Shown here: positions 4,084-23,477 of the stretch, piece by piece
How the letters are laid out: each line of letters begins with the position of its first letter
Position numbering within the stretch: position 1 is the stretch's first letter
IMG/VR virus record: IMGVR_UViG_3300009149_004118
Location: 1 to 23,592 of that record
Source of the DNA: a virus
Length of the DNA stretch: 23,592 bases
Reading direction: 5' to 3' (one strand)
Translations under genes and position numbers: made by a program
The notes under the pieces: generated by a model
What the model saw: only the letters and a program-made list of their open reading frames with translations
Databases searched by the model: none
What the model was told of the DNA's origin: nothing

Positions 4084-5172
4084 TTATACCGAAACTGATA
4101 CTTCGCTAAATACTGTTTCTAACATTCTTTCAGTGACTTGGTATGGGTCACAATTTGAAGCTGGTCTTCTATCCTCAAAATAACCTTTCTTATCAACAAT
4201 TGATTGTGCTGGTATTCTGATACTTGTGTCTCTTGTGCTATATCCGTGTGTGAATTCGTGAATTGTTGATGTTTCATGCTCACCAGTCATTCTTTTATCA
4301 TTCTCTAGTCCATATACTAACATATGTTCTTTGTGAGTTTCTTTTAATTTCATAACAGCCTCATCTATTAATGATAATCCACCTTCTTCTCTCATTTCCT
4401 TTGTTGAGAAATTAACATGACATCCTGACCCGTTCCAATCACCACTCATAGGTTTTGGGTGTAGTGATACAATAACATTATATTTTTCAGCAACTCTTTC
4501 TAACAAGTATCTAGATACCCACATTTGATCACATCCATTTAGTGGTGTTACGGGTCCAATTTGATATTCCCATTGACCTAACATAACTTCTGCGTTTATT
4601 CCCGATATATCTAATCCAATCTCCATACACATATTCATATGTTCTTCGACTATATCTCTACCAATAACACTATCAGAACCTATCCCACAATAATAATCTC
4701 CTTGTTCTCTTGGCTCCCCTTTTTCGAATCCTAGTGGTAAAGCTCCGTTTAACCCAAATGGATTTCTATCTTTTCTTGTTAATGTATATTCTTGTTCCCA
4801 TCCGAACCAAGGTAATTCATCCTTATTTAGTGATTCATCTATACTTAATTCTTTTACTTTTTGTTCGAGTGTACTTCTGTGATTGCTTTCGTGATTACTA
4901 CCATCTGGGTTTAATACCTCACAAAATACTAATTTGTTTTTACCACCTCTGAGTGGGTCATTTGTTATAAAAACTGGGTTTAGTAAGCAATCTGTATTCT
5001 TACCCTTTCCTGCTTCTGCTTGTTTTGTTGAGCTTCCATCGAATGACCAAGTAGAGTAGTCTTCTTTTTCGAAGGAATCTTTCATTTTAATTACTTTAGT
5101 TTTACTTCTTAGTCGTTGAGGATTTGACCCATCTAACCAGATATATTCCAATTTAAGATTTTGCATTTGCAT
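4084..5172 (-). CDS. glnA: Glutamine synthetase, type II (eukaryotic-like) family
   Basis: A full-length glutamine synthetase (362 residues) that makes glutamine from glutamate, ammonia and ATP. The N-terminal beta-grasp part carries the SFDGSST motif (43-49). The catalytic domain has WFGWEQEYT (122-130) with metal-binding Glu, GINAEVMLGQWEYQIGP (191-207), the NGSGCHVNFST motif (247-257) with the substrate His, SIRIP (317-321) and EDRRPASNCDPY (333-344). Length and motifs fit the type II family found in eukaryotes and some bacteria including Bacteroidota, not the ~470-residue type I enzyme. All key residues I can check are present, so it should be active. It stands alone on the minus strand between phage genes and is an auxiliary metabolic gene, plausibly acquired from a host. 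Met1 or Met3 may be the start. Confidence 0.96.
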   Translation of the reverse strand: MQMQNLKLEYIWLDGSNPQRLRSKTKVIKMKDSFEKEDYSTWSFDGSSTKQAEAGKGKNTDCLLNPVFITNDPLRGGKNKLVFCEVLNPDGSNHESNHRSTLEQKVKELSIDESLNKDELPWFGWEQEYTLTRKDRNPFGLNGALPLGFEKGEPREQGDYYCGIGSDSVIGRDIVEEHMNMCMEIGLDISGINAEVMLGQWEYQIGPVTPLNGCDQMWVSRYLLERVAEKYNVIVSLHPKPMSGDWNGSGCHVNFSTKEMREEGGLSLIDEAVMKLKETHKEHMLVYGLENDKRMTGEHETSTIHEFTHGYSTRDTSIRIPAQSIVDKKGYFEDRRPASNCDPYQVTERMLETVFSEVSVSV

Positions 5173-7550: not shown

Positions 7551-8276
7551 TTATAGTTCATTAACTTTATCTTTAAATCTCCATATGTATCCAGAAGATG
7601 TATAATTATAATTATTATTATTTTTAAAGCAACAATTTGATATTGAGGTTCTTTTTATTCCAGATTTTTCAGATGATTGTCTTATAGATTCATATTCCAT
7701 TATGAGATTTCCGTCAATATCATATTGTAACACAATTCTATTCTTTATCCTAAGTGATTTAGGTTTATCTAAGTTAATTTTTTTTGGATTTTTATCTCTA
7801 AACTTCCATATATAGAATCCGGCATGTTTTAATATACCATTACAGTTTTTACTTATATTTGGTGTTGGTATACCACTTTCTCTGGATGCTTCGTTTAGTG
7901 ATTTATATTCTTTTATGAAATTACCATCAATATCATATTGTAAAACACTATTTGATATTTTTTTAATATACTCTGAATTATTTTTAGGTGTCCCTCCACC
8001 ACCTTTACGTTGATTACACTTTGGTTTGATCTTATCAATCCAATATATTTCCCTCTCTTCCCAATTATCAGAGTTACAAACCTCTATTATATCTAGTATT
8101 GGTTTTTCATTAGATTTAATCAACTTTCTAATCCAATTGGTTTTTTTTGTTTTTATATCCCTTTTAGCATCATATAAATGATTATAATATCTAACTTTTG
8201 GGTTATTACTCTTACCTATATATTTTATATCATTTGATATTGGGTCAGTTAGACTATAAATATAAATTTTGATCAT
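7551..8276 (-). CDS. GIY-YIG homing endonuclease with two NUMOD1-type repeats
   Basis: A 241-residue free-standing homing endonuclease. The GIY-YIG domain is at the N-terminus: IYIYSL (4-9), KYIGKS (18-23), conserved Arg 29 and His 33, a Glu near 75 and CNQRKGGGG (87-95). Two DNA-binding repeats follow, both starting VLQYDIDGN (about 112 and 182) and running through a small helix-turn-helix (SLNEASRESGIP..., SIRQSSEKSGIK...) to a closing (F/Y)IWKF/RF. It is antisense to its neighbours and sits between the 7180 gene and the portal gene. A TATATATA box ends four bases before its ATG. It presumably invaded the portal upstream region and cuts the same locus in phages that lack it. Confidence 0.95.
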   Translation of the reverse strand: MIKIYIYSLTDPISNDIKYIGKSNNPKVRYYNHLYDAKRDIKTKKTNWIRKLIKSNEKPILDIIEVCNSDNWEEREIYWIDKIKPKCNQRKGGGGTPKNNSEYIKKISNSVLQYDIDGNFIKEYKSLNEASRESGIPTPNISKNCNGILKHAGFYIWKFRDKNPKKINLDKPKSLRIKNRIVLQYDIDGNLIMEYESIRQSSEKSGIKRTSISNCCFKNNNNYNYTSSGYIWRFKDKVNEL

Positions 8277-10174: not shown

Positions 10175-10627
10175 ATGCTATGTTTTTTGTGTCGGGTATT
10201 TCAAAGTAAAATTGTGTTACGCTATTATCAAAGGGTAGTCTCAATTGTTTAGCTATAATTGGACAATTTGATTCCAATAGACATTTTAGTTCTTTTCCTG
10301 ATGTGTTATCTAGAATTTTAACTTCTATTTTTAATTCATCCACTTTATTATCCTTTATTATAAAAGACATTGCCCTTACGAAAAATGCTATACTTTTTAA
10401 TGATATGTCATGATCTTTTGGCTTACCCAAGCTACCGTATATTGGTGTGTTTATATTTGATATTTCTGTTACATCAAATCCGATTCTTTTACCCTCGTTT
10501 AATAAAACGTTAAGTTTTATCTCTCGTTTGTATTGTGTCCATTGTGGAAATTTAGCCAATAGCCTATCATAGTGAGTAACTCAACATCATTTTCTAAAAT
10601 AACATCATATTCTAGTAAATCACTCAT
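10173..10627 (-). CDS. Unknown protein, apparently split by a -1 frameshift
   Basis: The RNase R stop and an ATG overlap as TAATG at 10625-10629, so a coupled gene should start at 10627. That frame reads MSDLLEYDVILENDVELLTMIGYW and stops after 36 codons. The -1 frame is open from 10577 and continues as HYDRLLAKFPQWTQYKREIKLNVLLNEG to a stop at 10173. Joining the two near 10572 gives a continuous ~150-residue protein (…ENDVELL/HYDRLLAKFPQW…), while the longer part alone has no start codon better than TTG at 10559. No slippery heptamer is evident, so this may be a real frameshift mutation, a one-base sequencing deletion, or unusual recoding. No domain is recognised; the C-terminal part looks like a beta-rich fold (AIIKDNKVDELKIEVKIL, QFYFEIPDT). 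Function unknown. Confidence 0.6.
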
Positions 10628-12531
10628 TACATTTTAATGAAATCTATTTGTTTCTTATCTAAATCAACACCATTAACTATTATAGTTATATCATCACCCA
10701 ATCTTATTCTATCTCCAACGTCATTAAAAATTTGATAATTGTCTGTATCTATGTGATAGTTACCTTCCAAAGATTGATATCTTATCATACCCTCACATTT
10801 ACTTTCTTTTAATTCAACATATAAACCCCAGTCAGTTACACCAGAAACTATACCATCAAAGACTTTACCAATTTTATCTTGTAAATATTCGGCTTGTTTG
10901 TATTTAATAGAATCTCTTTGTGCTCTTGATGCTATTAATTCTCTACTTGAGCACCATTTAGCTTCATCTTCGACTTTAGTTGGATTTCCTTGTTTCTTAT
11001 TTTCTAAGAAATCAAGTAACATTCTATGTGTCATTAAATCAGGATATCTACGTATAGGACTTGTGAAGTGTGAATAGTGTGTAAATCCTAATCCATAGTG
11101 TCCTATGTTTTGTATTGTGTATGTTGCTTTAGACATACATCTTGTAACAACTGTACTTAACATATTTTCTTCTGGTGTTCCTTTAACATCCTTTAATAGT
11201 TGGTTTATAGACTTTTTAAGTTCTTCTCCTTCGCCTTCTGCTTTGAATTCGTGACCGAAAGTCTTACAAACATTAGCCAGTGCTGTTAATTTATCCATGT
11301 TAGGAGTATCGTGTACTCTAAATACGTTAGTTCTTGAATTACTTGATAGTAGTTTAGCAACAGATTTATTAGCTAATAACATAAATTCTTCAATTAGTTT
11401 ATTTGCTTCTTTTTGTTCTTTGAAATAAACACCAATTGGTTTTTTATTATCTTCTGCTAATTTGAATCGAACTTCAATACCACCCATTTCTAATGATCCG
11501 TCTTTAATTCTTTTCTTTCTTATTTTCTTAGCTAGTGTATTAAGATGATTAACCATTAATGGATAAACTCTATCTTCTCCTTTATATTTATCATCATTAC
11601 CCTCGATTATCTCTTGAGCATCTTCATAAGCAAATCTCATATCAGAGTGAATGACTGTTTTACCATGCCATTCTTTAACTATTTTCCCATCAGAATCCAT
11701 AGTGAATACTACTGAGAAAGCTAATCTATCTTCATTAGGTTTTAACGAACATATTCCATTACTTAATCTCTCTGGTAACATTGGTACACATCTATCAACT
11801 AGATATACTGATGTTGCTCTTTCATAAGCTTCATCATCTAATTTACTACCTGGTTTAACATAATATCCAACATCAGCGATGTGTACTCCTATTTCGAATC
11901 TATTATCATTTATTACTTTAAGTGATAGTGCATCATCAAAATCACGAGCATCTACTGGGTCAATTGTTATTGTTGTCACATCCCTCATATCTCTACGAGA
12001 CTTTATCTCCTTTTCTGTTATTACTTCTGGAACAAGTTCTGATTCATTTATAACATCTTGTGTGAAATCAACTGGTAATCCATATTCATACATTATTGAA
12101 TTCATCTCAGCGTTATTATCACCAACATCACCCAATATCTTAGTTATCTTAGCTTGTGGTGATTTACTATCTTCCCACTTTGTTAATTCAACAATAACCT
12201 TTTGGTTATCTTCCGCTTTTAACCCACCTTTAATATAGAAATCAACTGGTATTCTTCTACTGTCAGGTATGACGAATGTTAATTTACCATTAATGTGTAC
12301 TCTACCAACGAATTCTTTCTTATTTCTGGTGATTACATCAACTACTTTAGCTTCTAATTTCTTTTCACCCTTGAATACTTCTACTGTTACCTTATCTAAG
12401 TGTAAAGCATTTTTAGTATTTTTCTTGAAAATGAAAATTGATTTATCGTCTATTGTGATTGTTGCGTGTCTGTTTGTTGAGAACTCGATAGTACCTTCGT
12501 ACCGTTCTCCTGCTTTTATATTATTATTCAT
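10627..12531 (-). CDS. rnr: RNase R / RNase II-family 3'-5' exoribonuclease
   Basis: A processive 3'-5' exoribonuclease of the RNB family. I choose ATG 12531 (MNNNIKAGERYEGTIEF) over the upstream ATG at 12591, because AAAGGA lies four bases before it and the cold-shock-like OB fold starts there; this gives 634 residues. Order: OB/cold-shock domain(s) (about 1-130), RNB catalytic domain with TIDPVDARDFDDALSL (about 187-203, the Asp cluster that binds Mg2+) and HIADVGYYV, the RNB signature FTSPIRRYPDLMTHR (about 487-501), and a C-terminal S1 domain (from about 555, DGIVSGVTDWGLYVEL). It lacks the N-terminal helix-turn-helix and basic tail of E. coli RNase R (813 residues). In bacteria RNase R degrades structured RNA and the non-stop mRNA released by tmRNA, which matters because a tmRNA lies 7 kb away. 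Its stop overlaps the next ATG. Confidence 0.95.
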   Translation of the reverse strand: MNNNIKAGERYEGTIEFSTNRHATITIDDKSIFIFKKNTKNALHLDKVTVEVFKGEKKLEAKVVDVITRNKKEFVGRVHINGKLTFVIPDSRRIPVDFYIKGGLKAEDNQKVIVELTKWEDSKSPQAKITKILGDVGDNNAEMNSIMYEYGLPVDFTQDVINESELVPEVITEKEIKSRRDMRDVTTITIDPVDARDFDDALSLKVINDNRFEIGVHIADVGYYVKPGSKLDDEAYERATSVYLVDRCVPMLPERLSNGICSLKPNEDRLAFSVVFTMDSDGKIVKEWHGKTVIHSDMRFAYEDAQEIIEGNDDKYKGEDRVYPLMVNHLNTLAKKIRKKRIKDGSLEMGGIEVRFKLAEDNKKPIGVYFKEQKEANKLIEEFMLLANKSVAKLLSSNSRTNVFRVHDTPNMDKLTALANVCKTFGHEFKAEGEGEELKKSINQLLKDVKGTPEENMLSTVVTRCMSKATYTIQNIGHYGLGFTHYSHFTSPIRRYPDLMTHRMLLDFLENKKQGNPTKVEDEAKWCSSRELIASRAQRDSIKYKQAEYLQDKIGKVFDGIVSGVTDWGLYVELKESKCEGMIRYQSLEGNYHIDTDNYQIFNDVGDRIRLGDDITIIVNGVDLDKKQIDFIKM

Positions 12532-12541
12532 ATTCCTTTTA

Positions 12542-12943
12542 TTAGGAAATATCGTTTTGTTTATTATCTCGCTTGGATATGTTATCAACACCGTACTTAT
12601 CTATTAGTGTTTTTTTCATCTTGTTCAATACCTTATTGTTCTGTATTGGATAATCAACACCATAATTTTCTCTTAGAGATTTTTTTCTTTTTGATTCTGA
12701 ACATTTTCTACAAAAGTATTCTCCCCATTTATTATCATACTTAACATAGTTCTTAAAGATTACATCCTTTTCGATTCCACATTTGTCACACTTACACTTT
12801 ATCTTATAGTGTGATCCTTTAGATAGTAATTCAACAGGTATTATTAATAACTCACCTATTGTAACATCACTATATCCTAAATTCTCATAGTATGAATAGT
12901 TTGCTTCGTTTATTTTAACTTTTATCTCCCTAGTTATGATCAT
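12542..12943 (-). CDS. Zinc-ribbon protein with YGVD repeats, homing-endonuclease-like, possibly truncated
   Basis: A 133-residue protein ending 10 bases before RNase R. It contains a four-Cys zinc ribbon (CKCDKCG...FCRKC, about residues 50-80), then repeats of the type K-x(n)-ENYGVDYPIQNNKV and DKYGVDNISKRD. This combination is seen, to my knowledge, in phage proteins associated with homing or Vsr-like nucleases, where many YGV(D/E) units precede a nuclease domain. Here the ORF stops right after the second unit, so the nuclease part seems to be missing. AGAGG lies about six bases before ATG 12943. It may be a decayed mobile gene inserted in front of RNase R. Confidence 0.6.
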   Translation of the reverse strand: MIITREIKVKINEANYSYYENLGYSDVTIGELLIIPVELLSKGSHYKIKCKCDKCGIEKDVIFKNYVKYDNKWGEYFCRKCSESKRKKSLRENYGVDYPIQNNKVLNKMKKTLIDKYGVDNISKRDNKQNDIS

Positions 12944-15327: not shown

Positions 15328-17037
15328 ATGTCACACATTAGAATAGACAAACAAAAAGCAATGAAGAAATGGTCTCCAGTATTAGAGAACATGGGAGTTG
15401 CTGGCGAAGATAGACTTGATTGGATGTCTGAGTATGCTGAATTTCACTCTATAAATGAAAACGCTTATGCTAACGCATCTAACGTTTCAGGTATGGGAGG
15501 TGTTATAGCAGCACAACCATCATCATTAGCTGGTTCTACAATCGGAAACGCTTGGTCAGGAAATGGTGGTTCACTTGGTTCAGGTGATGTTGGTCAAAAC
15601 CTTTTACCAGTAGCGATGAAAATTGCAGCTCAAACAATCGGTTTAGATTTAGTAGCAGTTAAACCTTCTCCGGGTCCAAAAATTGATTTATTATATATCG
15701 ACTTTAGATATGATGATGCTCATTTAGGAAACGAAGATGAAAGACCACAAGTATTTAAGATAGCACCAAACGCTTTATTCACGAATATGGCAGCAGTTAT
15801 CACTGGTCTTAGAGGTCAATTGACAACTAACACAATCGCTGAAACAGTTGGTGGTTTAACATCAAGAATGTGGAATAACATCGGAACTGGTGCAGCAGTA
15901 GTTGTAGAACCAGCTAACAAAGCGGGAGAAGTTGAATTTTTAGGATTCTCTAGAATTGACGGTTATCCAATGTTCAGAGCTTACAGACAATTTAATACAT
16001 CACATACTGCTGTTGGTACTGCTAACAACACTTGGGGGTTTGATGCAACAAGAAACACGTTCACAGCAACGGCTTCTATGGCTTCTCAAATCACTAACTT
16101 AGGTGGTGTAGTATTGAGTGATGAGCCTACTATTGAATTAGTATCAGCTCTTGAAGATCACATTCCTGGTTTCTCTGCAAACTGGATGTCATCTGCAAAT
16201 GGTGCTTCAGGTAACTATCCAATGGATAGAGATATGGACGATAAGAGATACTCTGGTATCATCGGACCAAAAATTAGTTCTAAAACAGTTGCCGTAGGTA
16301 CTATTGAAGTATCTTCAGCTCTTAGAAGAACTGAAATTGAAGATATCAAAGCTAACACAGGTATGGATATCGTTCAAAAAATGGAATCAATTCTTGTTAA
16401 TGAATTATCTCAAACAATCTCTAAGCAAATTGTTGCTAAGATATTTGAAATGGGTGATCTTAACAGATTGTCAGCTCCAGCTAGTACAGCAACAACTACA
16501 ATTGTTAATCCAACGATTTTCGATTTAGATACGGCTTACGCATCTGCTGGTGTTGGTGTTGGTGGTGAAACTACTCACGCTGTTCAAAGAAAGCTTGTAA
16601 CTAAGATAGCTCACGCTTCTAACTACATTGCTACAGAGGGTCGTGTTGGTCCAGCTCAATACCTTATTACAAATGGGGGATTAGCAGCAGCACTTTCTGA
16701 CATCTCTGGTTATACACTTAACCCAGTTAAGTCTAAAATCAATGGACAAAGTCAATTATACCCAGTAGGTTCAATTGGAGATATTTCAATATATGTTGAT
16801 CCATATATGAGATATAACGACAACAGAATCGTTCTTGGTAGAAAGAACAACCCAGACCAACCAGGTATTATTTTCGTACCTTACTTAATGGCACAGTCTA
16901 TATCTGTAATCTCTGAAGCGACTTTCGCTCCTAGAATGTTACTAAGATCTAGATACGCTGTAACAGAAGTTGGTTGGTTCCCACAAAAGCAATTTATGAC
17001 TATCAACGTATTAGATGCAGAGCAATTCTTAAACTAA
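15328..17037 (+). CDS. 23: Major capsid protein (T4 gp23-like)
   Basis: The 569-residue protein forms the hexamers of the icosahedral head (HK97 fold). Features of T4 gp23: an N-terminal helix with MKKWSPVLE (compare NKWKPLLE), a Gly/Ser-rich segment after it, LLPVAMKIAAQTIGLDLVAVKPSPGPKIDLLYIDFRY (compare the AFDICGVQPMNSPTGQVFALRAVY region), TSRMWNNIGTGAA, EDIKANTGMDIVQKMESILVNELSQTISKQIV, and the C-terminal IYVDPYMRYNDNRIVLG (488-504) with ATFAPRMLLRSRYAVTEVGWFP. A likely maturation site is INE/N at residues 42-45, cutting off a 44-residue propeptide; T4 cuts its protein after Glu 65. Codon use is richer in C-ending codons than in neighbours, typical of a highly expressed gene. Confidence 0.96.
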   Translation: MSHIRIDKQKAMKKWSPVLENMGVAGEDRLDWMSEYAEFHSINENAYANASNVSGMGGVIAAQPSSLAGSTIGNAWSGNGGSLGSGDVGQNLLPVAMKIAAQTIGLDLVAVKPSPGPKIDLLYIDFRYDDAHLGNEDERPQVFKIAPNALFTNMAAVITGLRGQLTTNTIAETVGGLTSRMWNNIGTGAAVVVEPANKAGEVEFLGFSRIDGYPMFRAYRQFNTSHTAVGTANNTWGFDATRNTFTATASMASQITNLGGVVLSDEPTIELVSALEDHIPGFSANWMSSANGASGNYPMDRDMDDKRYSGIIGPKISSKTVAVGTIEVSSALRRTEIEDIKANTGMDIVQKMESILVNELSQTISKQIVAKIFEMGDLNRLSAPASTATTTIVNPTIFDLDTAYASAGVGVGGETTHAVQRKLVTKIAHASNYIATEGRVGPAQYLITNGGLAAALSDISGYTLNPVKSKINGQSQLYPVGSIGDISIYVDPYMRYNDNRIVLGRKNNPDQPGIIFVPYLMAQSISVISEATFAPRMLLRSRYAVTEVGWFPQKQFMTINVLDAEQFLN

Positions 17038-17118: not shown

Positions 17119-17508
17119 ATGATTAAAAACTATAATTTATACTTAGAGAGTAAGAAAGATAAATTTCCAAATATTAAGAAAATTGAAGCAAAAGGTTTCT
17201 TTATCTATATAGGTAGGGATGCTAAATCTAACGACCATTTAACATTTAATGTTGCTTATGATGAGGACATTTGGATGCACGCTAAGGGTGTTCCTGGTAG
17301 TCATGTTGTTATAAGAGTTAGTGAGAATTTACCAACTAATGAAATTATAAGATATGTTGCTGGATTAGCTAAGAAAAATAGCAAAGCTAGTAAGGAAGAG
17401 AATGTAACTGTTGTTTATTGCCAAAGAAGATTTGTTAAGAAGGAAAAAGGTATGAATGATGGTCAAGTTAGGGTTGATTATATCAACGCTTATGAAATTG
17501 TAGTTTGA
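17119..17508 (+). CDS. Stand-alone NFACT-R domain protein (RqcH/Rqc2 C-terminal domain fold)
   Basis: A 129-residue protein that is almost only an NFACT-R (DUF814) domain. Visible signature: GFFIYIGRDAKSNDHLTFNVA (about 26-46, compare G..IYVGRNA.QND.LT), then DIWMHAKGVPGSHVVIR (50-66), the hallmark D-x-W-x-H-x(n)-PGSHVV-x-R. A helix (NEIIRYVAGLAKKNSKA) and a final strand pair (VTVVYCQRRFV, VRVDYINAYEIV) complete the fold. In RqcH (bacteria) and Rqc2/NEMF (eukaryotes) this domain is part of the ribosome-quality-control factor that binds obstructed 60S/50S subunits; here the NFACT-N, HhH and coiled-coil parts are absent. Isolated NFACT-R proteins have been proposed to act on RNA. It has its own TATATATA box and lies 2 kb upstream of the tmRNA. 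Confidence 0.88.
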   Translation: MIKNYNLYLESKKDKFPNIKKIEAKGFFIYIGRDAKSNDHLTFNVAYDEDIWMHAKGVPGSHVVIRVSENLPTNEIIRYVAGLAKKNSKASKEENVTVVYCQRRFVKKEKGMNDGQVRVDYINAYEIVV

Positions 17509-17544: not shown

Positions 17545-18900
17545 ATGGCGGGAGAAACTAAAAGAGTGCAGTTTTCAGATAGATTAAAAAAAATTCTTAA
17601 AGATTTAGAGGATAATAATAACTATTTAGCCTTTGAGCTACTTTGGATGGCTGATCCGACTGCAAAATATCATAATGGACTTGGTATAACCAATGTTGAT
17701 TGTGGTACAGATAAATCATCAGACTTTAATTTTACTGTTGTTATTGATGGTAAGAAAAATACAATGAAAATTGGTAAATTTATTAGATATTATTTTTCTA
17801 ATTTATTTGGGAATGATGAGATATCAAAATTTGTTCACACTTTTAATAGAGTTAAGAATGGTGCTAAGGCTGAACAAACAGGTAAGAAAGTTGAAATACC
17901 CGAATTTAGTTATAATCCAAAAGACCCTAGGTCTACATTCCTTTCACTTGTTACAAGAACATATCCTCATCCACATGAGGAAGAAGTTATGAAATTCTTA
18001 CCGAAAGGATTAGATAAAGATGAATTTGGTAATTATTATAAAGTAATTGCTGGTGATGATACTACAATGTTTAGTTCTCACTTAGATACTGCTGATAGAA
18101 GTCCAGTACCTACTAATCTATTTACTAAAGAAGAGGATGGTGATGAGATAATCTATACTGATGGTAATACAATATTAGGAGCTGATGATAAGTCTGGTGT
18201 TACTGTTATGATGTATATGATGGCTCATAATATACCTGGTATTTATTACTTCTTTATTGGAGAGGAAAGAGGTGGTATTGGTTCTAATCAACTAGCTAGT
18301 GTTTATGATAAATTTGACTTCTTAAAGAATGTTAAGAAATGTATTTCTTTTGATAGAAGAAGAACAATTTCTGTTATAACACACCAAATGGGTGGTCGTT
18401 GTTGTTCTGATGCCTTTGGTACAGGACTTTGTAAAGAATATAATAAACAAGGACTTAATTTATCGTTAGATAATGGTGGTGTTTATACCGATTCTGCTTC
18501 ATTTATGGATATTATACCAGAATGTACTAATTTATCAGTTGGTTATTTGAATGAACATACAGGAAGAGAAGAACAGAATATGACATTCTTAATACAATTA
18601 TGTGAAACTTCTATTAATGTTGATTGGGCTGGTTTACCAGTTGCTAGAAAAGTGGGTTTGAACCTTGAGTTGGTTAAAAAACACAAATCTTTAATAGAAG
18701 TTATTAAAGATGGTGCATTTGCATTAGAGGTTAAGATGGTTGGGTATGATGATAAAATATTTATAAGAATAGATTTGGATGATACTAACATAGTAACTGT
18801 TTACGATACCTTAGGTATTATACAAAACTTACTTGATAAACATAAGGTGGATAGTATGGTAATGTTCGATGAAACATATATTAAAATAGAACTAAACTAA
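17545..18900 (+). CDS. Zinc metallopeptidase of the M20/M28/M42 (aminopeptidase-like) clan
   Basis: A 451-residue protein. Residues ~115-360 form a co-catalytic zinc peptidase core with the full ligand set expected of clan MH: His 179 in SSHLDT, Asp 214 in GADDKSG, Glu 240/241 in GEERGG (catalytic base plus ligand), Asp 270 in SFDRR and His 338 in NEHTG. DNGGVYTDSASFMD before the last ligand is like the M42/M20 substrate loop. The N-terminal ~110 residues and the C-terminal ~75 (a small alpha/beta domain with VKMVGYDDKIFIRIDLDD) are extra and unassigned. Known relatives are aminopeptidases, dipeptidases or deacylases, so peptide trimming in the cytoplasm is likely; the substrate is unknown. 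It lies between the NFACT-R gene and an acidic protein one base downstream, upstream of the tmRNA. Confidence 0.85.
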   Translation: MAGETKRVQFSDRLKKILKDLEDNNNYLAFELLWMADPTAKYHNGLGITNVDCGTDKSSDFNFTVVIDGKKNTMKIGKFIRYYFSNLFGNDEISKFVHTFNRVKNGAKAEQTGKKVEIPEFSYNPKDPRSTFLSLVTRTYPHPHEEEVMKFLPKGLDKDEFGNYYKVIAGDDTTMFSSHLDTADRSPVPTNLFTKEEDGDEIIYTDGNTILGADDKSGVTVMMYMMAHNIPGIYYFFIGEERGGIGSNQLASVYDKFDFLKNVKKCISFDRRRTISVITHQMGGRCCSDAFGTGLCKEYNKQGLNLSLDNGGVYTDSASFMDIIPECTNLSVGYLNEHTGREEQNMTFLIQLCETSINVDWAGLPVARKVGLNLELVKKHKSLIEVIKDGAFALEVKMVGYDDKIFIRIDLDDTNIVTVYDTLGIIQNLLDKHKVDSMVMFDETYIKIELN

Positions 18901-19405: not shown

Positions 19406-19471
19406 CTGTAAAAAATCCATTAAATAAAATTTACAACTTTTTTGTCTTTTTAGATATTATATATATCTTTG
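19406..19471 (+). promoter_or_regulatory. tmRNA promoter region
   Basis: TTTG at 19441-19444 and TATCTTTG at 19464-19471, 19 bases apart, match the Bacteroidota housekeeping promoter (TTTG at -33, TAnnTTTG at -7). A phage-type TATATATA overlaps it at 19458-19465, and CTGTAAAAAATCCAT, the motif seen before the head genes, lies at 19406-19420. Either start would give a 5' leader of roughly 15-25 bases before the tmRNA acceptor stem, for removal by RNase P. Confidence 0.6.
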
Positions 19472-19494: not shown

Positions 19495-19875
19495 GGGGAT
19501 GTCATAGAATAGATTCGCAGAGTAAGGGTGGTTATGCAGGTATCGGATTGTTAATTAACCGATTAATAAATTAAATAGCAAAATAGTAAACGGAAACGTA
19601 ACAGAAGTAGCAAGCAAAGAAGATTTAGTATTTGCTCTACAAAACAACCTACTTAACGTAGGAGAGTTAGAAACAGCGTAAGCTGGGAGAAAACTCAAAA
19701 AAATTCTCCACCTGATTCACACAGTTGAAAAATGTGAGACCGTTGTTTGTTGATTTTTAGAAGTCTTTTCAAAAAAATTAACTATTTTGTAAGTTTAGAA
19801 AAACGTACTAAGCCTGTAAATGAATAATTATTGTTAACTGAGGAAGACACGATGGGCAGTACATCGTCATCTCCA
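19495..19875 (+). ncRNA. ssrA: Phage-encoded tmRNA (transfer-messenger RNA) with a 29-residue tag
   Basis: tmRNA frees ribosomes stalled on broken mRNA and adds a peptide tag. The 381-base gene starts GGGGATG and ends CATCTCC-A; these seven-base ends pair with the G3:U70 wobble that alanyl-tRNA synthetase reads and the discriminator A. After the 5' strand comes TAGATTCGCAG (family GGATTCGACGG). P2 pairs TGCAGG (about 19536-19541) with CCTGTA in TAAGCCTGTAA near the 3' end. AAATAGTAAAC precedes the resume codon GGA (19592-19594), Gly as in Bacteroidota tags. The tag runs 29 codons, begins GNVTEVASKE, contains LVFAL and ends NVGELETA; its TAA (19679-19681) lies in the loop of hairpin CAGC-GTAA-GCTG, the usual P5 placing. 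Hairpins such as GGAGAA/TTCTCC and TCACA/TGTGA follow, as pseudoknot parts. The T arm has an abnormal loop. CCA is not encoded in full (ACAA). No SmpB gene is seen nearby. Confidence 0.92.
19592..19681 (+). other. tmRNA tag reading frame (29 codons, resume codon GGA)
   Basis: From GGA at 19592 the frame is open to TAA at 19679-19681. It starts GNVTEVASKE, passes through DLVFALQNNLL and ends NVGELETA. Known Bacteroidota tags are about 9 residues and end in ALAA (for example GENNYALAA). The FAL here lies where YAL would be, and the frame then continues another 13 residues. Confidence 0.8.
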
Positions 19876-19881
19876 CAAGAG

Positions 19882-19917
19882 CCAACTGAGCTGTACGTAA
19901 TCAGTTGGATTTTTTTT
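19882..19917 (+). terminator. Terminator directly after the tmRNA
   Basis: CCAACTGA pairs perfectly with TCAGTTGG across an 11-base loop, followed by AT7, starting seven bases after the tmRNA discriminator base. Confidence 0.93.
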
Positions 19918-20376: not shown

Positions 20377-20862
20377 ATGATTAACAAATTCGAAGGTCGG
20401 TACCGATTTCTGTCAAATTTCTACCCTTGTGTTATAGAACACCAAGGAATTTCATACCCATCAAATGAACATTATTATGTTGCTATGAAAGTGACTGATG
20501 AACAATTCATTAATGGTAGGTACTATACACCTGGTGATTTCAGGGAAATGATAGCGACTATTAAAAGTGCGGCTATTGTTAAGAAATTAGGTCAAAAAGT
20601 TAAAGTGCGTAAGGATTGGGATTCAAAGAAGATAGAATTTATGAATTGGGGTGTTAGAGAAAAATTTAACAAAAACTCAACTCTTAGAGAATTATTACTA
20701 TCAACTGGTGAAGAAGATCTAATCGAGGGTAATTTTCATAAAGATACCTTTTGGGGTGTTTGTAATGGAAAGGGTAAGAACCATCTTGGTAAAATTCTAA
20801 TGGATGTTAGAAGGGAATTGAGAGGTGAGAAGAGAGTTGGTTTGGAATCTATACTAAAATGA
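20377..20862 (+). CDS. NADAR-family protein (YbiA/COG3236-like ADP-ribose N-glycosidase fold)
   Basis: A 161-residue single-domain protein. FEGRYRFLSNFYPC (5-18), SYPSNEHYYVAMK (26-38) with conserved Glu 31, DWDSKKIEFMNWGVREKFNKNSTLRELLLSTG (80-111) and TFWGVCNGKGKNHLGKILMDVR (124-145) are the NADAR signature (x-W-G-x(n)-G-x-N-x-LG-x-x-LM-x-x-R). Members cleave N-glycosidic bonds in ribosyl compounds; some remove ADP-ribose from guanine and act as antidotes in DarT-type toxin systems, and many occur in phages. In a phage it may undo host ADP-ribosylation defence or handle NAD+ derivatives; which one cannot be read from sequence. It lies upstream of a homing endonuclease and an adenine methylase. 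Confidence 0.93.
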   Translation: MINKFEGRYRFLSNFYPCVIEHQGISYPSNEHYYVAMKVTDEQFINGRYYTPGDFREMIATIKSAAIVKKLGQKVKVRKDWDSKKIEFMNWGVREKFNKNSTLRELLLSTGEEDLIEGNFHKDTFWGVCNGKGKNHLGKILMDVRRELRGEKRVGLESILK

Positions 20863-20915: not shown

Positions 20916-21737
20916 GTGAGAAAATTAAAATATTTAACAGAAGAAGAAGAGCTTGAAGTCTTTAATGAAAGAGAATCGGGTAATAAAAGAAAAGATATAC
21001 TATCTAAGTGGGGTATATCAGAAAGACACTATAAAGATATTATACTTGAGAATGGTGGTGTTTTTAACAATCTAACACAAAAATATAATTTTAACGAAGA
21101 CTACTTTGAGACAATTGATTCGGAAGATAAAGCCTACTTCTTAGGATTTATTATTGCTGATGGTACTATCAATTGTGATAATAACTCAATTCGTATAATA
21201 CAAAAAGAGACTTATATATTATATGAATTTAAGAAATGTGTAGATTTTGAAGGACCAATTTTTACCAGAAAAGATGGTAAGATATCTTACATTACTATGT
21301 CCTCATCTAAAATGAAAAATGATTTAGATAAATTGGGAATATATTCAAATAAAACAATGTTTGTTAAATACCCAGATATACCAAGACATTTACAAAACCA
21401 TTTCATTAGGGGTGTCTTTGATGGTGATGGGTGTATCTCGATGAGAAGGGATAAAAGAGATAATTCAGTTAGGGGTCAATTTAATATATGTTCGGGTAGT
21501 CACGACTTCATAAGGGACTATTATAATAAATTGGTTGGGTATGCTGGTCTGGGTGGTAAGAATAAAATAAGATGTCCAAAAGGAACTTATTACGTTTGTG
21601 ATTGGGGTAGTATGAGTGATATCGAAAAAATATATGAGTTCTTGTATGAAGACTCTACGATATATTTGAATAGAAAAAGGGAAACTTTTGATGAGATTGT
21701 TTCTATAACTAAAAGTAAGAAAAAATATAGAAAATAA
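20916..21737 (+). CDS. LAGLIDADG homing endonuclease
   Basis: A 273-residue monomeric LAGLIDADG protein with both core helices: YFLGFIIADG (74-83) and FIRGVFDGDG (163-172), each ending in the catalytic acid. The N-terminal ~45 residues (EEEELEVFNERESGNKRKDILSKWGISERHYKDII) look like a helix-turn-helix DNA-binding extension. The start is GTG at 20916; no ATG is available upstream in frame close by. It is inserted between the NADAR and methylase genes in the same direction. It lacks an intron or intein context, so it is a free-standing mobile gene targeting this intergenic region in related phages. Confidence 0.93.
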   Translation: MRKLKYLTEEEELEVFNERESGNKRKDILSKWGISERHYKDIILENGGVFNNLTQKYNFNEDYFETIDSEDKAYFLGFIIADGTINCDNNSIRIIQKETYILYEFKKCVDFEGPIFTRKDGKISYITMSSSKMKNDLDKLGIYSNKTMFVKYPDIPRHLQNHFIRGVFDGDGCISMRRDKRDNSVRGQFNICSGSHDFIRDYYNKLVGYAGLGGKNKIRCPKGTYYVCDWGSMSDIEKIYEFLYEDSTIYLNRKRETFDEIVSITKSKKKYRK

Positions 21738-21766: not shown

Positions 21767-22738
21767 ATGTCTGTTATTAGCTATTTCGGAGGCAAGTCCT
21801 CAAAAGTATTTCATCAATTTATAAATACTAGAATACCAAAAGATGGTATCAAAACTTATTTAGAACCATTCTCAGGTGCAATGGGAACGTATATGGACGA
21901 CCCGAATCTTAAATTCGATACAGTTATCTATAATGATAAGAACCGTCACCAGGTGAACTTATATAAGTGTTGTCAGAACCCAACAGAGATGTTGTTAGCA
22001 ATAGATAATCTAAAAAATGGATTATTACACACCACAGAAACAGATCCAATAAAAAATTGGGATTTTTATAAAGCTATTTATAAAACATATCAGAAGAATG
22101 ACTTCTTAGATGATATGAATTTTGAGATTGGTGATTATGAAAAAGCTGCTATGTATGCTTTCTTAATCACATCAGCACATAATTCAGTTTATCCAAGAGG
22201 TGCTGGGTTTAATGGGTATAAGAAGAATAATGGTAAACTTAAAATAGAAGCGCTAGTTAATAAATTAAAGAAGGGTACTTATACAGATAAGTTAGAATCT
22301 ATTACAGAATTTTATAATATCGATTTTGAAGAGTTGATAAATAAATATGATTCAGTAGATACATTTCTTTATTTAGACCCACCTTACGCTCGATTTGACG
22401 AAGCTAAAGGTGTTGATGATGCTAGGAGACTATTCTGGTATGGTTGTGATGATGAGGGAGTATTTGGACCAGAATCTCATAGGAGATTATTAGAGTTACT
22501 TAAAAAGACTGATTGTAGATGGTCTTTATCTTATTATTACTTTCCTTTATTAGAAGAGTTATTACCAAGAGACCAATATATTTGGGTTGAGAAAGAAGTA
22601 TTTAGAAGTTCTGCTCATGGTGGGAATAATTCAGATAATAAAAAGGTACAAGCTAAAGGTGTTGAGATGCTTATTATGAATTATGACCCAGAAACGGGAG
22701 AAAAAATTAATAATATGGATGTCGAATGTGAATTATGA
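21767..22738 (+). CDS. dam: DNA adenine N6-methyltransferase (Dam / D12 class)
   Basis: A 323-residue methyltransferase that would methylate adenine at N6 using S-adenosylmethionine. D12-class motifs: YFGGKSS (6-12), motif I EPFSGAMG (33-40), VIYNDKN (54-60), a helical target-recognition insert (residues ~100-170, with AHNSVYPRGAGFNGYKKNNGK) and the catalytic LDPPYARF (203-210). The C-terminal YIWVEKEVFRSSAHGGNN...EMLIMNY closes the domain. Length is somewhat above E. coli Dam (278) and T4 Dam (259). The likely role is protection of phage DNA from host restriction or marking of replicated DNA; the recognition site is not known. Its last 20 bases overlap the next gene. Confidence 0.93.
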   Translation: MSVISYFGGKSSKVFHQFINTRIPKDGIKTYLEPFSGAMGTYMDDPNLKFDTVIYNDKNRHQVNLYKCCQNPTEMLLAIDNLKNGLLHTTETDPIKNWDFYKAIYKTYQKNDFLDDMNFEIGDYEKAAMYAFLITSAHNSVYPRGAGFNGYKKNNGKLKIEALVNKLKKGTYTDKLESITEFYNIDFEELINKYDSVDTFLYLDPPYARFDEAKGVDDARRLFWYGCDDEGVFGPESHRRLLELLKKTDCRWSLSYYYFPLLEELLPRDQYIWVEKEVFRSSAHGGNNSDNKKVQAKGVEMLIMNYDPETGEKINNMDVECEL

Positions 22739-23477
22739 GATAGTTGATGTTTTTGAGAGTATAAAGGATGATATTTTTATACCACAGTCTTATATATCTA
22801 TCAATAATAACTTAAAGAATTTTAATAATTTTAAGATTAGTATTTCTGTTCCTTTGAATGGTAGTGATTTAGGGCTTGATGTTACTTCTGAGTTGGTTAA
22901 AACTTTGAGAAATGAAATGAATCAACATATTAGTAAGAAAATATTAAGTGGATTATTTTCTACACCTAAATTTGATTATATTGATATAAGTGATTGTGTA
23001 AATACACACACATCTGTTAATAGAATGATTGACTTTATAATATCTGATTATGATCATAAATTTATAATGACTAATTCACAATTATCTAGTTCTTTGTGTG
23101 ATAGTGCCAAATTCCATTTTCAGAAGATAGTTAGTGGTTTTTCAGTTGGTTCCGGGGCGTTTCCTCATCAAATAGGGTGTATATCTAGACATGATATCTA
23201 TTGTGATCCATTCATGAAATTTGACGATAATAGAATTTGTTTATTTGATAGTTGTGAGATAAATATAGAAAATCTTAATCACTCGATAATTGCCGCTAAT
23301 ACTTTTGCTCCTAAGATGGTCGTAAGTTATGATTTAGCTTATAGTTTGGGTGATTCCAAGGTTCTATTTGTATTAGATGGTGATGAATCATCTACATCTT
23401 ATAAACAATACAAACAATTACAACGTGATATAAAAATAGATTCTTTATTAGATGGTAAAGAAGAAAATACCCTGTAA
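22719..23477 (+). CDS. Compact capsid-protein paralogue (HK97-fold, gp23/gp24-related)
   Basis: I choose ATG 22719 (MSNVNYEIVDVFESIKDD), 20 bases inside the methylase gene, giving 252 residues; an upstream ATG at 22683 would add 12 residues. The C-terminal half mirrors the major capsid protein of this window: IYCDPFMKFDDNRICLF (160-176) against IYVDPYMRYNDNRIVLG; NTFAPKMVVSYDLAYSLGD against ATFAPRMLLRSRYAVTEVG; FIMTNSQLSSSL against YLITNGGLAAAL; and LVKTLRNEMNQHISKKIL against LVNELSQTISKQIVAKIF. It lacks the first ~300 residues of the capsid protein. It could be a vertex protein like T4 gp24, a decoration or core protein, or a decaying duplicate. The fold is intact over the conserved part and the reading frame is clean. 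Confidence 0.72.
   Translation: MSNVNYEIVDVFESIKDDIFIPQSYISINNNLKNFNNFKISISVPLNGSDLGLDVTSELVKTLRNEMNQHISKKILSGLFSTPKFDYIDISDCVNTHTSVNRMIDFIISDYDHKFIMTNSQLSSSLCDSAKFHFQKIVSGFSVGSGAFPHQIGCISRHDIYCDPFMKFDDNRICLFDSCEINIENLNHSIIAANTFAPKMVVSYDLAYSLGDSKVLFVLDGDESSTSYKQYKQLQRDIKIDSLLDGKEENTL

Follow-up and report, generated by a model that had tools for sequence, protein, structure and literature searches.

Positions 19,495 to 19,875 of the window (the whole 23.6-kb stretch of viral DNA that was analysed) had been read in an initial annotation as the tmRNA of a phage, with a long tag that does not end in ALAA. This raises the question whether the element is a working trans-translation RNA owned by the phage and, if so, what becomes of the proteins it would tag. 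The reading as a tmRNA held up in comparison with a syntenic family of 57 members and in the covariation of its helices. The features on which the analysis rests are listed in Table 1.

Table 1 Features of the tmRNA locus and of neighbouring genes, with their positions in the window, strand and supporting evidence.
Feature	Position	Strand	Evidence
RNase R	10627..12591	-	TIGR02063 654.7 bits (cut-off 597.85); RNB domain 372 bits
Stand-alone NFACT-R domain protein (domain of RqcH/NEMF)	17119..17508	+	PF05670, E 7e-16
Peptidase T / M28-like peptidase	17545..18900	+	phrog_4191 peptidase, E 1.7e-64; TIGR01883 weak; conserved neighbour
Bacteroidota-type promoter TTTG-N19-TATCTTTG	19441..19471	+	Exact match to TTTG-N19-21-TAnnTTTG
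tmRNA gene (acceptor 5' end to discriminator A)	19495..19875	+	Rfam RF00023 and homologue family
Acceptor stem (P1), 5' strand GGGGATG with G3	19495..19501	+	7/7 pairs with 19868-19874
D-loop equivalent TAGAATAGA (canonical TGGATTCGA)	19505..19513	+	Compared with L104 (TGGCTTTGAC) and 30 Bacteroidota tmRNAs
Start of P2, TTCGCAG	19514..19520	+	Pairs with CTGAGGAA at 19838-19845
PK1 stem ATCGG/CCGAT	19542..19563	+	100% of cells paired over 5 pairs; compensatory changes at 2 of these
Tag frame: resume codon GGA, 29 codons GNVTEVASKEDLVFALQNNLLNVGELETA, stop TAA	19592..19681	+	Frame open in 57/57
P2 3' strand with tmRNA hallmark CTAAGCCTGTAAATG	19808..19830	+	Matches Rfam tmRNA GACUAAGCAUGUAG; paired, covarying
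Noncanonical T-arm: 6-bp stem ACGATG/CATCGT, loop GGCAGTA	19849..19867	+	Alignment, covariation
Acceptor 3' strand CATCTCC with U70, discriminator A	19868..19875	+	Sequence
Intrinsic terminator CCAACTGA..TCAGTTGG-A-T8	19882..19917	+	Seen directly in sequence

Identity and descent of the tmRNA gene

Taken alone, the window makes a weak case, and the argument for a tmRNA rests on its relatives. ARAGORN called no tmRNA in the window and Rfam reported nothing at its gathering threshold. Under permissive settings, the tmRNA model RF00023 (model positions 1-374) could be aligned over its full length to 19495-19878, with an E-value of 0.012 and a score of 11.9 bits, which does not reach the gathering cut-off of 47 bits. 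Rfam matches to PyrR, the L10 leader and STnc630 in the same region were rejected as chance hits driven by the terminator.

Searching with two neighbouring proteins of the window, we collected 115 IMG/VR loci, most of which carry the tmRNA element at the same position. Many of the IMG/VR contigs are near-duplicates and several loci stem from the same phage populations; the homologue set comprises 57 distinct usable tmRNAs, the window counted in, and leaves out two more rows that were truncated or misplaced. The region also matches the huge-phage genomes LR745206 (634,780 bp) and LR756502 (642,428 bp), at whose tmRNA loci ARAGORN likewise found nothing. A conserved order of capsid gene, NFACT-R gene, peptidase gene and tmRNA is shared by the huge-phage homologues.

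Four syntenic homologues (L104, L110, L113 and L116) scored 50-57 bits with Rfam, above the cut-off, and ARAGORN called tmRNAs in three of them (L104, L110 and L113), which are among the most divergent homologues. Since divergent syntenic relatives are thus recognised by Rfam and ARAGORN, the window clade is a derived branch of genuine tmRNA and, through these four homologues, the window tmRNA belongs to RF00023 by descent. The Rfam and ARAGORN check that the initial annotation had advised was negative for the window and positive for some of its relatives, and the blanks on the window, considered as a refutation, were set aside once the relatives had been examined.

The gene is flanked by expression signals. 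Bacteroidota promoters follow the consensus TTTG-N19-21-TAnnTTTG, and the match in the window ends 23 nt upstream of the tmRNA 5' end; the pattern (spacer 17-23) lies within 80 nt upstream of the tmRNA in 29 of the 57 homologues, compared with 0.09 expected from shuffles. The terminator that had been proposed right after the tmRNA stands as well, with a terminator-like site within 90 nt in 56/57 sequences.

Several other features of the window and its relatives were recorded. A NADAR-domain protein (20377-20862) adjoins the tmRNA in most loci, and one of its NCBIfam relatives is named as an anti-phage family. A glutamine synthetase (GlnII-like, 4084-5172) also occurs in other huge phages including a 735-kb one, and the bacterial relatives found for it are at most 52% identical. 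The ORF at 22683-23477 is similar in sequence to the C-terminal portion of the major capsid protein (15328-17037), with CDPFMKFDDNRI in the former and VDPYMRYNDNRI in the latter, and is perhaps a capsid paralogue. Two ORFs beside structural genes (7551-8276 and 20916-21737) were judged by eye to be probably homing-endonuclease-like. The 735-kb phage itself contains a tmRNA-like stretch (L190; LR756501 718388-718731, minus strand) that scores 21 bits end to end and has a possible 33-residue tag, GDYKMNAEDMMSIPTSLTGKVATESFVEDLVLA, without a clearly assignable acceptor or T-arm.

Covarying helices and a rebuilt elbow

The acceptor stem forms all seven pairs both in the window, with the G3:U70 pair claimed in the initial annotation, and in all 57 distinct homologues, and pairs 5 and 6 have changed on both sides. 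At pair 3, alignment A1 has G:U in 43 of 47 rows and A:U in four, which is partly caused by five rows with shifted 5' ends; owing to these shifts the counts for the acceptor err on the low side. The gene does not encode CCA, the acceptor being followed by A-CAA. In P2 and PK1, upstream of the tag, helices 2-5 show compensatory changes, the second strand of PK1 lying outside the test. The helix between TTCGCAG and CTGAGGAA has them at four of six pairs, with 99.3% of cells paired. P2 is thereby confirmed, and the GATTCG signature that had been reported at 19512-19517 proved to be misregistered, being mostly the start of this covarying helix and no D-loop signature; the D-loop itself is TAGAATAGA, which aligns with the canonical TGGATTCGA.

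RNAalifold, applied to 47 window-clade sequences, recovered the acceptor, P2, PK1 and the T-stem unprompted. The named structure comprises 40 pairs; of its 1875 pair cells, 97.7% hold standard pairs, in comparison to 36-50% when the strands are slid by 1-3 columns. Both-side changes occur at 19 of these pairs, and there are 154 double-change cells versus 40 in shuffles.

The T-arm, which the initial annotation did not describe, departs from the canonical form. In 44 of the 47 window-clade sequences a 6-bp T-stem carries a seven-base NGC... loop, and the D-loop equivalent has AG (A12 and G13, unchanged in all 47), whereas all 30 Bacteroidota tmRNAs compared have a 5-bp T-stem with a TTC-type loop, and the Bacteroidota D-loop has GG. 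The window tmRNA accordingly does not meet the canonical description of a 5-bp T-arm with UUCRANN loop and D-loop GG, while L110, L113 and L116 fit it, with the T-arm form of Bacteroidota. The failure of ARAGORN and Rfam on the window is explained by the D-loop TAGAATAGA together with this T-arm. Compensatory changes support five of the six T-stem pairs. Because the outermost A-U never varies (47/47), a 13-bp acceptor/T arm is our best inference and not proven. The constant A12-G13 and an equally unchanged G-C in the T-loop would fit an altered tertiary contact between D-loop and T-loop, and we infer that the altered elbow as a whole co-evolved with the phage SmpB. An intermediate clade (L100, L108 and L115) has the T-loops TTCATC, AGCGAAA and ATTCGCAC, which are possible steps between canonical and window-type elbows.

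In other respects the RNA resembles the one-piece tmRNA of Bacteroidota (ssrA, RF00023), with which it shares the G3:U70 acceptor, P2, PK1, the CTAAGC..GTA hallmark, the position of the resume codon (about 94-98 nt) and a glycine there, as in host tags of the GENNYALAA type. The distance in Rfam score is nevertheless large, with 12 bits for the window and 105-198 bits for 59 of 61 Bacteroidota genomes. The phylum was sampled for this comparison since a Flavobacteriaceae MAG reached via the glutamine synthetase contained no full tmRNA.

A long and conserved tag frame

The tag frame is open in every one of the 57 sequences, whereas not one of them has either of the other two frames open. The tag runs from a GGA (Gly) resume codon at 19592 to a TAA at 19679-19681, as the initial annotation had proposed. 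Its further claim that the stop lies in the loop of P5 found no support in conservation, as the region after the tag varies. Across the family, the tags comprise 27, 29 or 30 codons and their lengths change by whole codons only. The consensus is G(N/K)(V/T)NEVGTxEDLVAALQNN(M/L)L..EEL..V/A, in which Asp12, Val14 and Leu17 (alignment columns) are invariant, the second half is variable and the last residue is Val in 34 and Ala in 23 tags. For the first 17 codons, pN/pS is 0.56, compared to 0.70 and 1.26 in the shifted frames. The constraint on the peptide is real but moderate and not strict. The tag frame of the window contains no ATG, GTG or TTG and so cannot be an ordinary small gene; 15/57 sequences do have a start codon upstream in the same frame. 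Loss of the tag frame or of the acceptor pairing among relatives had been named as grounds for rejecting a tmRNA, and both are kept in every relative.

The tag differs clearly from that of Bacteroidota, where 29 of 30 tags have 9-10 residues and end in AA, the one odd tag being probably a misassignment by ARAGORN. The length of about nine residues given for host tags in the initial annotation thus agrees with our survey. With 29 residues and the end ETA, the window tag does not match the ClpXP-type ssrA pattern (short, hydrophobic, LAA or MAA end), nor does any relative carry the host pattern. The nearest relatives of the tag peptide among annotated phages are found only in LR745206 and LR756502. 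A Pfam search with the peptide gave no match, and neither did a mycobacteriophage tag used as a query.

Partner genes and the fate of tagged proteins

As the window is only a fragment, SmpB, ClpC and ClpP were seen in relatives alone, while RNase R and NFACT-R are encoded in the window. The five related records with a length of at least 385 kb all have SmpB (Pfam), as has the 735-kb phage; the proteins of LR745206 and G002 reach about 170 bits with TIGR00086, above the equivalog cut-off of 119. The same five records contain an AAA+ protein of the ClpC/ClpB/ClpA type, about 710 residues long, with a VGF stretch, which we take to sit where ClpC has its ClpP-binding loop. ClpP was found in four of the five, in up to three copies, one of them within about 3 kb of smpB in LR756502 and G003. 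In L141 and L142, smpB is clustered with a divergent third ClpP and with thioredoxin-like, sigma-factor-like and YqeY-like genes. Lon, absent from all 11 records searched, was ruled out as the tag protease.

An RNB-domain protein is present in four of the five records. The RNase R gene lies between the portal and head-protease genes on the opposite strand, in a similar place in LR745206, G002 and G003 and elsewhere in LR756502. Of the 106 loci with sufficient sequence upstream of the peptidase gene, 103 have the NFACT-R gene, fixed between the peptidase and major capsid genes. RNase R is a known nuclease of trans-translation, which in E. coli is recruited via the 3' end of the tag frame, and NFACT-R is part of RqcH (PMC8012679).

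From these components we propose the following mechanism. The tmRNA would be transcribed from its own Bacteroidota-type promoter, ended by the intrinsic terminator, trimmed, supplied with CCA and charged with alanine through G3:U70. With phage SmpB it would enter ribosomes that have stalled on broken mRNAs, a situation to be expected often while the host is being taken over; translation would resume at GGA, add Ala and the 29-residue tag, and stop at UAA. Phage RNase R could then destroy the mRNA, and the tagged protein may be removed by the phage ClpC-like protein and ClpP or left alone by an ALAA-specific ClpXP route of the host. The parts required up to the stop at UAA (promoter, chargeable acceptor, SmpB of relatives and conserved tag frame) are supported by sequence evidence; for the two later steps we rely on inference from the gene content and from a tag that is conserved and unlike that of the host.

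Two readings would deny the RNA such a role. It might be a tmRNA pseudogene in decay, or a structured RNA of another kind with no more than a resemblance to tmRNA, as the missing ARAGORN call, the subthreshold Rfam score and the lost UUC of the T-loop would allow; this is scarcely credible in view of compensatory changes in all main helices, nearly complete pairing, a tag open in all relatives and syntenic relatives above the Rfam cut-off. A decoy that titrates SmpB or tmRNA function of the host and so blocks host trans-translation, similar to the tmRNA fragment of mycobacteriophage DS6A, would have a precedent in a TLD-only phage tmRNA relative (PMC4131195) and be in line with an elbow unlike that of the host. 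A decoy, however, could do without a tag, whereas the frame has stayed intact throughout, and the phages bring their own SmpB, which makes this reading improbable. Both are thus disfavoured by the intact tag, the phage SmpB and the covariation. We consider it most likely that the element is a working, phage-owned trans-translation RNA, with the reservation that RNA or peptide data are lacking and that alanylation, SmpB binding and tagging are inferred. We hold with good confidence that a T4-like huge phage of Bacteroidota here has a functional one-piece tmRNA, which acts by the steps proposed above, the later two being inferred.

The fate of the tagged protein is less certain. The tag could be passive and kept mainly as RNA, for example for folding or to recruit RNase R as the 3' end of the E. 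coli tag frame does (PMC8012679), with ribosome rescue as the sole function and no special protein fate. The modest pN/pS, the variable second half and a hairpin predicted inside the tag region are compatible with this possibility, which remains doubtful as long as it must account for an open frame in all 57 sequences, a length held at 27-30 codons by whole-codon changes, three invariant residues and a V or A at the end of every tag. The same terminal residues, small and hydrophobic as in AAA+ C-degrons, and the ClpC-like and ClpP proteins of the phages also speak against a tag that spares or localises useful truncated phage proteins and is no degradation signal; the lack of the terminal AA seen in 29/30 Bacteroidota tags and a conserved EDLVxALQNN core that could, by inference, form an amphipathic helix would suit such a tag, which we regard as unlikely. 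The initial annotation suggested that tagged proteins might escape host ClpXP or be redirected, which is plausible, though untested, and gains support because the related genomes encode SmpB, ClpC-like protein and ClpP. Delivery of tagged proteins to the phage ClpC-ClpP in place of host ClpXP is an inference and has not been shown: both phage proteins could serve other ends, and there is no evidence as to which protease, if any, recognises the tag. It may be speculated that the phages run a self-contained orthogonal trans-translation, in which a tmRNA with rebuilt elbow (13-bp acceptor/T arm and new T-loop/D-loop contact) is read only by phage SmpB, the tag is a private degron for phage ClpC-ClpP, and RNase R and NFACT-R clear mRNA and ribosome. 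This proposal is tentative and may well prove wrong.

Long tags are known in mycobacteriophage tmRNAs. Phage tmRNAs listed earlier are those of mycobacteriophages (Bxz1 group, Wildcat) and Bacillus phage G, which likewise have the gene in a large phage genome (PMC4131195). Phage G differs by a 13-residue tag (AKLNITNNELQVA), a score that passes Rfam (67.6 bits) and a canonical GTTCGACT T-loop. tmRNA and SmpB have been mentioned in huge phages, using ARAGORN, and the largest members of the Mahaphage clade were predicted to infect Bacteroidetes (Al-Shayeb et al. 2020, PMC7162821); the main-text passages searched in that study contain neither this tag or T-arm nor the set of ClpC, ClpP and RNase R. 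Mesoplasma florum offers a precedent for a different protease, as its longer, non-ALAA tag is read by Lon and not by ClpXP (PMC9382460); in the huge phages no Lon was found, and they encode ClpC-like protein and ClpP instead. In the literature searched, mostly titles and abstracts, neither the tag nor the T-arm nor the combination of SmpB, ClpC, ClpP and RNase R was found described.

Single phage tmRNAs were already known. The present one has diverged beyond standard finders and has a long conserved tag, in phages that also bring SmpB, ClpC-like protein, ClpP and RNase R. Because standard finders miss such diverged tmRNA, surveys that depended on ARAGORN or on Rfam cut-offs will have arrived at numbers that are too low. 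A tRNA-elbow geometry outside the canonical T-loop may, moreover, work on the ribosome. If the proposal is true, a virus would own a whole line of ribosome rescue and protein disposal inside its host. Such a line would provide an orthogonal degron of natural origin, and with it the reason for phages to carry tmRNA could be tested directly.
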